This document shows, piece after piece, positions 49,553-52,172 of a DNA stretch of 52,172 bases. Where the stretch lies: NCBI GenBank assembly GCA_022340425.1, contig JAJDNY010000049.1, positions 1-52,172 of the forward strand. The letters are read 5' to 3'. The notes beneath the pieces are model-generated. The model was given only the letters and a program-made list of their open reading frames with translations, ran no database searches and was not told the DNA's origin. The position numbers were made by a program, and so were the translations under genes. The stretch is from Desulfobacteraceae bacterium. Its GTDB lineage: Bacteria; Desulfobacterota; Desulfobacteria; Desulfobacterales; JAABRJ01. Each line of letters opens with the position of its first letter. Within the stretch, counting starts at the first letter, position 1.

Positions 49553-51394
49553 ATGATTATTACCTGCGAAGAGTGTGATACCAGTTTCAACCTGGACGAT
49601 AAAGTCGTCAAACCGTCCGGTTCCAAGGTGCGGTGTTCCCAGTGCCGGCATGTCTTCACGGTCCACCCATCGTCTGGCCTGGCGGCGGATCAGGCCGGGC
49701 TTCCCCCGCAACCGGCGACCCACGGGGCGGATGCCCCGGCTGGTGGGGGCGCCGAAGCGGCCCAGGCTTCAGCAGCCGGGGCGGTGGCAGCCGGCGGGGC
49801 CCTGAGCTTTGACGAGGAGTTCGACCCCGGGGCCGAGCGGGCCTTCGAGAAAGCCCTGGAAGAGCTGGGGCTTGAGGACGACAGCGTTGCGGGCAGCAGT
49901 GACATGGACCTGGGCGAGATCGAGAACCTGCTGGAACTGGAGGATGATGCCGGGACTCGCGAAAAGCGGCCAGCGGGGGCTTCTCAAACCGCCGGGAGCG
50001 CAGCCGAAGGCCAAGGGGCCTCGGCCGACGATGAAGGCCTGGACCTCAGCGGTCTGGATGAGTTGTTCGATATTCCGGAGGAAGCCGAGGCCAACGAGGG
50101 GGGGGAACACCCGGTGGCGGCCGCCGAAGGGCAGGAGGCCGAACCCGCTGAGGATGAGGCCGATGAAGACGAGATCATCGATCTCTCCGATCTCGAGGAA
50201 ATGCTGGATTTCGAGGAGGATCAGGATGCGCTGGAACCCCAGGAGGTGGAACTCACCTTGAGCGAGGATTTCGGCGCAGAAGAGGATCTGTCGGCTATTG
50301 ATGAAGGCGGCGGCGAGGAGGATGACCTGGACCTCTCGGATCTGGAGTCGCTGCTGGAAACCGATGAGGCCGAAGGCGGCGATACCGATGCGGCCACCGG
50401 TGATCCGCAGCGGGGCGAAGCGCCAGAGGCCCTTGATGCCGACGGCGATGACGTCGAATTGATCGATCTCTCCGATGTCGGGGGGGCCTTCGATGACGAA
50501 GGTGACGGCTCATCCGCTGACGGTGCCGAGACCGCCGATGCCGATGATCTGGAACTCGAGCTGGACTTTGATTCGGCTGCCGATGAGGATCAGGAAGCCG
50601 CGGCCGATGGTTTCGAGCTTGAATTCGAAACCGACGAGAGCAAGCAAGCCGCCGGCTTTGGGGCTGCGGCAACGGCAGCGGTCGCGGCCGGCGGGGCGGC
50701 CACGCCCGTTGGCGCCGAGACGCCGGCTGAAAAGGGCTTAGCCGAAACCCGGCCGGCCGAGCGTAATAAGGTTCGCAAGTCGGAGCCCTACAGGGCCGCC
50801 GCTGGCGCCCAGAAAAAGGGCAGCGGCGCACCGGCCCTGATCCTGCTCCTGCTGATTCTTCTGATCGTCGGTGTTCTGGCCCTTCAAAAATTTCTGGGAG
50901 TCCACATCCCCTATGTCACGGATCTCACCCGGAGCATCCCCTTTATCGGCGAGTTTGTTCAGCCCCAGGGGCAGGTGAGCGATCCTGCCGGGAACCTGTA
51001 TCTCTCGACCCTCAACATCAACAGCCGGTTTATCGAAAACGATAGCGCCGGCAGGCTCTTCATCATCACCGGTGAGGTCAAAAACGGCTACACCGTGGCC
51101 CGCCGTGACATCGCGGTCAACGGCAAAATCTACTCCCAGGGAAAGCAGCTGGTGAAAAGCGAGAACGTAGTCAGCGGCAACATTCTCGCCGACCTGGATT
51201 TGAAAAACCTGAGTTTCGAGGAGATTCAGGGCCGCCTGAACACCAAAGGCGAAATCGGCGTGGCCAACCTCGAGGTCAAGCCCGGTGCCACCATTCCCTT
51301 CATGCTGGTTTTCTCGGACCTGCCGGAAAACCTGGAAGAGTTCACCATCGAGGTGACCGGCTCCGCGGCGGTTACCGCCCCGACGGCCAACTAA
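49553..51394 (+). CDS. Zinc-ribbon/DUF3426 membrane protein with acidic repeat region
   Basis: This 613-residue protein has an N-terminal MJ0042-type zinc ribbon (CxxC at 5-8 and 28-31), then about 350 very acidic residues. These hold five copies of a short D-L-S-x-hydrophobic motif at 118, 163, 209, 259 and 304, spaced 45-50 residues. A single membrane helix lies at about 427-445 and a C-terminal DUF3426 domain at about 460-605 (TLNINSRFIEND, DIAVNGKIYSQGK). Topology is probably cytoplasmic acidic head with periplasmic DUF3426. Function is unknown; FimV- or scaffold-like roles are conceivable. It follows hpt by 16 bp. Confidence 0.88.
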   Translation: MIITCEECDTSFNLDDKVVKPSGSKVRCSQCRHVFTVHPSSGLAADQAGLPPQPATHGADAPAGGGAEAAQASAAGAVAAGGALSFDEEFDPGAERAFEKALEELGLEDDSVAGSSDMDLGEIENLLELEDDAGTREKRPAGASQTAGSAAEGQGASADDEGLDLSGLDELFDIPEEAEANEGGEHPVAAAEGQEAEPAEDEADEDEIIDLSDLEEMLDFEEDQDALEPQEVELTLSEDFGAEEDLSAIDEGGGEEDDLDLSDLESLLETDEAEGGDTDAATGDPQRGEAPEALDADGDDVELIDLSDVGGAFDDEGDGSSADGAETADADDLELELDFDSAADEDQEAAADGFELEFETDESKQAAGFGAAATAAVAAGGAATPVGAETPAEKGLAETRPAERNKVRKSEPYRAAAGAQKKGSGAPALILLLLILLIVGVLALQKFLGVHIPYVTDLTRSIPFIGEFVQPQGQVSDPAGNLYLSTLNINSRFIENDSAGRLFIITGEVKNGYTVARRDIAVNGKIYSQGKQLVKSENVVSGNILADLDLKNLSFEEIQGRLNTKGEIGVANLEVKPGATIPFMLVFSDLPENLEEFTIEVTGSAAVTAPTAN

Positions 51395-51572: not shown

Positions 51573-51649
51573 GGCGATGTAGCTCAGTCGGTCAGAGCAT
51601 GCGGCTCATATCCGCAGTGTCCGGGGTTCAAATCCCTGCATCGCCACCA
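51573..51649 (+). tRNA. tRNA with CAT anticodon, elongator tRNA-Met (tRNA-Ile2 possible)
   Basis: A full cloverleaf folds: acceptor GGCGATG with CATCGCC, D arm AGCTCAGTCGGTCAGAGCA, anticodon stem TGCGG/CCGCA with loop CTCATAT (anticodon CAT) and T arm CGGGG-TTCAAAT-CCCTG. A genomic ACCA end follows. The first pair is G-C and the anticodon stem lacks three consecutive G-C pairs, so it is not the initiator. Elongator Met and the lysidine-modified Ile2 tRNA share this anticodon and cannot be separated by eye. An integrase gene starts 122 bp downstream. Confidence 0.95.
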
Positions 51650-51663
51650 TCTTTTCAGTATAA

Positions 51664-51689
51664 CCCACTGTGAAAACAGTGGGTTTTTT
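51664..51689 (+). terminator. Intrinsic terminator after the tRNA
   Basis: CCCACTG (51664-51670) and CAGTGGG (51677-51683) form a 7-bp perfect stem with a six-base loop, followed by six T. It lies 15 bp after the tRNA 3' end. Confidence 0.85.
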
Positions 51690-51726
51690 ATTGGTTCGCC
51701 CACCCTTTAAGGCTCGACTCCAACTC

Positions 51727-51752
51727 TTACACAAATCGGTTACACAAACCGA
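51727..51752 (+). repeat. Tandem 13-bp direct repeat before the integrase
   Basis: TTACACAAATCGG (51727-51739) is followed at once by TTACACAAACCGA (51740-51752), 11 of 13 positions identical. Its position between the tRNA and int suggests integrase arm-type sites or a regulatory operator; this is inference. Confidence 0.6.
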
Positions 51753-51770
51753 GGGATTGGAGGCGAGCAT

Positions 51771-52172
51771 ATGCACCAGATCACCAGGTCCCCCTCCTAT
51801 TTGATCCGCAATCCGCACTCGTACTGTTTCAGGATGAGCGTGCCGGCAGATCTTCGACCGTTTATCGGAAAAACGGAGTTGCGCTTCTCCCTCCAAACAG
51901 GGTACCTACGAACCGCAAAATCGAGGGCAAGGGTTCTTGCCGGACAGGTTCAGTTACTATTCCAGGGGATGAGGAGGAACCACAGAGGATTCATGAAACT
52001 GACCGATCACCAGATCCGCGACATGGTCACGAAATACCTTGAACGGGCCAAGGCATTAATGGATGAGCCGTTCGGGCCGAATGATGGCGACAGGCCTTTT
52101 GATGACGCCCCCTCCCTGACCGACTACATAAATGGTCTTGACGACGTTAAGAGGGACATCCTTGAAGAGATG
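51771..52172 (+). CDS. Tyrosine-type site-specific integrase, N-terminal part (truncated by window end)
   Basis: This open frame of 134 codons runs off the end of the window, so the length is unknown. The start HQITRSPSYLIRNPHSYCFR, followed by MSVPADLRPFIGKTELRFSL, is typical of the N-terminal domain of a class of tyrosine integrases (SAM-like, DUF6538-type). The catalytic Arg-His-Arg-Tyr core lies beyond the edge and cannot be seen. A GGAGG site at 51759-51763 supports the ATG. Location just after a tRNA and tandem repeats supports an integrase of a genomic island. Confidence 0.78.
   Translation, partial: MHQITRSPSYLIRNPHSYCFRMSVPADLRPFIGKTELRFSLQTGYLRTAKSRARVLAGQVQLLFQGMRRNHRGFMKLTDHQIRDMVTKYLERAKALMDEPFGPNDGDRPFDDAPSLTDYINGLDDVKRDILEEM

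Follow-up and report, generated by a model that had tools for sequence, protein, structure and literature searches.

The window analysed here, a stretch of 52,172 nucleotides from a Desulfobacteraceae bacterium, makes up all of contig G000:C49 in a draft assembly of 3.97 Mb and 209 contigs. Near its right-hand end, a forward-strand zinc-ribbon/DUF3426 gene (49553-51394; Pfam PF13717 and PF11906), which is a conserved host neighbour, lies to the left of a tRNA-Met(CAT) gene on the same strand (51573-51649; ARAGORN; Rfam RF00005, 69.8 bits). This tRNA gene, the putative insertion target, is left intact, and the 17 bp of its 3′ end, TCCCTGCATCGCCACCA (51633-51649, + strand), form the attL core predicted from the relatives G011, G069 and G273. 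It is followed, still on the forward strand, by an intrinsic terminator (51662-51691) made of a 10-pair stem at 51662-51685 and a T run, with a predicted RNA fold of -19.6 kcal/mol (z -5.5) that none of 200 shuffles equalled. Further on, two tandem 13-bp repeats, CTTACACAAATCG and GTTACACAAACCG (51726-51751), are enclosed between the arms of an inverted repeat found by repeat search and RNA folding: the left arm (51712-51723) is an anti-Shine-Dalgarno sequence and the right arm (51757-51768) contains the integrase Shine-Dalgarno TTGGAGG (51757-51763). The ATG of a tyrosine-type integrase gene stands at 51771, separated from the tRNA end by 121 bp, and its frame is open through all 134 codons to 52172, where the contig ends. 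The integrase N-terminus is a DUF6538 domain (PF20172, E 2.4e-18; 51798-51977). The PF00589 catalytic domain is found in full-length relatives from G011 and L143, and the window copy ends before that region.

The two tandem copies are identical at 11 of 13 positions, or at 11 of 12 in another register. When the 122-bp leader is shuffled, a tandem of this quality arises with P ~0.0008 (0.006 when any period from 11 to 19 is accepted), and the pattern TTACACA-N6-TTACACA, with at most one mismatch, occurs a single time in the whole 3.97-Mb assembly, at the window locus. No sigma-70-like promoter was found at the window junction. The tRNA(CAT) gene, the terminator and the tandem repeats had all been called in a first-pass annotation and are confirmed here, as is the drop in GC that it reported, from 0.649 before the tRNA to 0.512 behind it; GC as low as 0.512 occurs in 0.4% of equally long segments across the contig. 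Its description of the integrase as truncated needs a correction: the gene is indeed incomplete, but since the window is the complete contig and the gene runs off its end, the cut reflects the contig end and not decay. That annotation did not list the inverted repeat (51712-51723/51757-51768) that encloses the tandem.

The same annotation placed a genomic-island boundary at the tRNA gene, and the relatives support an element boundary there through empty sites, a variable integrase and a repeated tRNA 3′ end in G011. Of the relatives' 29 loci, 21 have tRNA-Met next to the best DUF3426 homologue (some loci being cut by contig ends). G001, which belongs to the same genus, has an identical tRNA, and its sequence diverges directly behind the CCA. 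Six relatives without the insertion (G007, G014, G016, G021, G025 and G026) have a DUF1992 gene ~0.2-1.0 kb behind the same tRNA-Met, which we take as the empty site; in the window's own genus DUF1992 lies elsewhere, beside a leuB-like gene. With a DUF6538 integrase in place, tRNA-Met and DUF1992 lie further apart, at ~21, ~30, ~47 and ~133 kb in G327, G069, G011 and G273, respectively. Far from being conserved in all relatives, this integrase was seen in 3 of 30 genomes, the window's own included, and is thus not a fixed gene at tRNA-Met. At this tRNA-Met, G011 carries a full-length integrase of the same family, and the tRNA 3′ end recurs ~13.6 kb further on; the 17-bp attL core is contained in the repeated tRNA end of G011, G069 and G273 at this gene.

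The tRNA-Met site is also used by unrelated integrases, since in G028 (G028:C78, locus L057) a P4-like integrase directly behind the same tRNA-Met, 182-1411 bases from it, shares target and orientation with the window integrase but is not a DUF6538 protein; its N-terminus presumably resembles that of DUF4102 integrases. In G273 (L183), two DUF6538 elements are apparently arranged in tandem, the second ~13.5 kb behind tRNA-Met, with attL and terminator near-identical but with only the 17-bp tRNA end. Six loci without a DUF6538 integrase (L042, L049, L053, L055, L057 and L059) show another motif in the first 60 bases behind tRNA-Met, consisting of GTCC and TGTCCAAAA-like words and then often a terminator, which may be the site of a different element family or else be native to these loci.

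We surveyed PF20172 in 389 genomes of the order and found it in 51 of them, at 70 listed places; six places below the Pfam cut-off were dropped, leaving 64 from 49 genomes, with an identifiable start in 60. Several of the 64 starts come from one genus and their counts are not independent, so non-redundant sets of 54 and 48 leaders were used. As controls we chose 40 tyrosine recombinases of relatives among the listed PF00589 matches by frame length (~340-540 aa), two of which had no usable upstream DNA, leaving 38. A complete same-strand tRNA gene ends 83-284 bp before the DUF6538 domain in 53 of the 64 cases (Met 20, Leu 16, Ala 11, Phe 5, Ser 1) as opposed to none of the 38 controls; among the remaining 11, one tRNA is masked by N and several cases, judged by eye, have the tRNA 3′ end only. 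Exact 7-mers recur at an offset of 13 in 32 of 54 non-redundant leaders, where 0.5 were expected, versus 0/38 controls, and no other offset between 5 and 40 exceeded 5 of the 54. The 22 leaders without an exact 7-mer at period 13 include G011, with a spacing of 24 bp, and a 12-bp period in 5 of the 38 controls suggests that other integrases may have a spacing of their own. The repeated core itself varies among elements (TTACACA, GGTACA, TTGTCCA and others). In 20 of the 53 tRNA-linked cases a terminator with a perfect stem comes after the tRNA, compared with 2 of 530 shuffles and 2 of 38 control integrases. Viral contigs yielded no relatives, and phage and plasmid records gave distant matches only, below 31% identity among the matches listed.

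For 24 relatives' elements we read ~8-60 kb of downstream DNA each, G259 (1.5 kb), from a set of 20 stretches, being left out as too short. In 12 of the 24 elements the tRNA 3′ end recurs as a direct repeat of 17-46 bp, giving element sizes of ~7.4-18.8 kb; for the other 12, no attR was found within the stretch read. In G011, the 14 kb that follow the tRNA contain exactly four copies of TTACACAC, one pair per element end, with 24 bp between the members of each pair. Just inside the far repeat, an element's own motif recurs as pairs 13 bp apart in G273a, G377, G380 and G251 and as single copies in G350, G184 and G345 (partly identified by eye). When attL and attR were swapped among elements, the longest matches summed to a mean of 88.6, against 111 for an element's own ends, a value reached in 1 of 20,000 permutations; in 8 of 12 elements the arm motif is itself the longest match, the exceptions being G069, G273b, G378 and G380. 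Target choice, the repeated tRNA end and the tandem motif inside both ends are thus observed in relatives, while the window displays the attL side. Because of the relatives' tRNA linkage and far-end repeats, the window is taken to hold the attL of a tRNA-Met element, with the tandem best read, from its sequence, as arm-type sites.

Phage-like genes recur in the relatives' elements and the other genes differ among elements. The phage protein phrog_2467, with a P-loop-like start and no assigned function, is present in L058:14374-15705 (G011) and L183:11503-12843 (G273), and phrog_4756, a phage protein without assigned function, in L247:11987-13600 (G377) and L250:9112-10245 (G345). The first-pass annotation judged accessory systems likely beyond the right edge of the window; in the relatives' elements, defence models matched 1 of 10 proteins scanned: L180:8672-9580 (G069), inside a tRNA-Met element, is a strong match to the candidate anti-phage defence model PDC-M03A (E 5.8e-111). 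In G345 (locus L250) the far end of the element, ~7.6 kb beyond tRNA-Met, seems to hold an entire second copy of the tRNA-Met gene and not its 3′ end alone.

Scored against shuffled sequences, 21 of the 48 non-redundant leaders have an inverted repeat around the tandem above the 95th percentile, compared with 3 of 38 controls. The window leader has a predicted RNA fold of -26.1 kcal/mol (z -4.2, unmatched in 200 shuffles) in which the Shine-Dalgarno is paired, and for a transcript begun within the loop the fold is on a par with that of shuffles (z -0.5). The window sequence is therefore predicted to contain both a terminator and a hairpin over the ribosome-binding site, and since IS200 has the same two devices, as described in PMC3196728, we infer that together they could shield the integrase from tRNA read-through.

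As for the DUF6538 domain, which Pfam lists as of unknown function, two models predicted from 5 sequences (mean pLDDT 73 and 75) showed, at moderate confidence, a strand-helix-strand-helix order. A search of solved structures with both models returned no match and did not connect them with known arm-binding domains, which does not exclude a shared fold; profile searches gave no useful DUF6538 match and did not tie its sequence to the N-terminus of any other integrase, and the name 'DUF6538' was not found in the literature searched. Since the motif at both ends corresponds to an arm-type layout, we propose that the integrase, and by its position DUF6538, binds the tandem; on these sequence grounds DUF6538 is probably the arm-binding part.

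The same repeats could have other roles. The inverted repeat might work as DNA, as a symmetric protein site whose overlap with the Shine-Dalgarno is incidental, a reading with which a 13-bp inverted copy of the inverted-repeat arm near the far end of G069 agrees. We find this possible but somewhat doubtful: the right arm overlaps the Shine-Dalgarno in 21 of 26 non-redundant stems, stem sequences vary widely among elements while the pairing is kept, and the imperfect positions in the 26 stems (G-T 17, A-C 2, other 10; G-T versus A-C, p 0.002) follow the prediction for RNA. RNA pairing is thus favoured by the excess of G-T over A-C, although this argument is weakened by the fact that 12 of the 17 G-T positions face the Shine-Dalgarno, in which the G is fixed on other grounds; this partly explains the excess. 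In a further alternative, the tandem and the inverted repeat would serve an excisionase or repressor of the element as operator or excision sites, and DUF6538 would do something else. The sites do sit where the integrase promoter would be, inverted attL/attR matches are also enriched (98 versus 85.5; 77 of 20,000 permutations), and the DUF6538 models lack a match among solved folds. However, the motif tracks the DUF6538 integrase family whichever tRNA is used, and it is present at both ends, as arm sites are, whereas the other genes of the elements differ, so that we regard operator or excision sites as unlikely.

A last question is whether this genome holds a complete element or only a decayed remnant, an attL with an integrase stub. 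The first-pass annotation had proposed a downstream repeat of the tRNA end as a check; probes of 23 and 15 bp from the tRNA end found no match at any tRNA gene of the 3.97-Mb assembly beyond the window locus, the 15-bp probe giving five 15-mers with one mismatch elsewhere, none at a tRNA gene. A second tandem was absent from the assembly, and the full-length G011 integrase matched the window locus only, apart from a weak 37-aa match (E 0.19). The C-terminal part of an integrase, encoded close to one end of contig C10, was rejected as the continuation, the G011 integrase having no match there, and contig C177, which carries DUF1992, was rejected as the right flank, as it lacks the tRNA-end repeat and its leuB-like neighbour is common to G001. 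Nothing else of the element was thus found in the assembly, as a remnant would have it, and remnants do exist, for example in G232, where an 87-aa integrase frame at tRNA-Met lies only ~1 kb from DUF1992. Nevertheless, the window's frame is open for 134 codons with an intact start region, and a remnant of 1-2 kb would presumably assemble more easily than a multi-kb element; we therefore consider a remnant quite improbable.

Taken together, it is our fairly confident reading of the sequence that the window ends in the attL of an integrative element inserted in the tRNA-Met 3′ end, with the tandem as putative arm-type sites and a hairpin that would shield the integrase gene. Such an element would insert into the tRNA-Met 3′ end so that its integrase gene begins ~120 bp inside. 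The integrase would bind the tandem pair as arm-type sites, most likely via DUF6538, would bridge both element ends through such sites and, when bound to the tandem, may also block its own promoter region. Transcripts coming from the tRNA gene would be stopped by the terminator; those reading through would fold the inverted repeat and hide the integrase ribosome-binding site, while a transcript begun within the loop, being without the left arm, could be translated. The junction repeats and the RNA hairpin would in this way probably keep the integrase in check. More tentatively, and at somewhat less than even chances, DUF6538 could be an undescribed arm-binding class whose element family carries a terminator and a Shine-Dalgarno-hiding hairpin looping out the arm sites, combining RNA silencing of read-through with DNA self-silencing.

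This would suggest how elements located behind highly active tRNA genes escape unchecked integrase synthesis, and the analysis proposes a testable function for DUF6538. The combination of tRNA end, terminator, enclosed 13-bp tandem and DUF6538 start could also serve as a rule to mark elements lost from drafts. The element is of a known kind, but its junction architecture was not found described in the literature searched, where we looked for tRNA-linked integrases with Shine-Dalgarno hairpins and arm sites and found nothing of this kind among the papers listed. A close arrangement in attL is that of prophage KplE1, with intS at argW (the 'STI' arrangement), where a tRNA gene is likewise followed by an integrase in the same orientation and where arm-type sites overlap the integrase promoter, leading to self-repression (PMC2951348). 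KplE1 differs in its integrase family, and the excerpts of that paper describe no terminator with a Shine-Dalgarno hairpin and no 13-bp tandem (PMC2951348). Integrases with an arm-binding domain, known from Tn916, BPP-1, SXT, P2, lambda and other groups, similarly have an additional domain at the N-terminus, ahead of the core-binding and catalytic parts, and arm sites on the element, but their domain has a fold of three strands and a helix, in contrast to the strand-helix-strand-helix of our models, and DUF6538 is unnamed in the excerpted text (PMC8138268). At the 5′ end of IS200, a first stem-loop ends impinging transcripts and a second hides the ribosome-binding site (PMC3196728); both devices, likewise placed before a recombinase gene and in matching order, are predicted from sequence in the window. 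IS200 is, however, an insertion sequence and not an element that targets tRNA genes, and the second hairpin of the window encloses the tandem sites.
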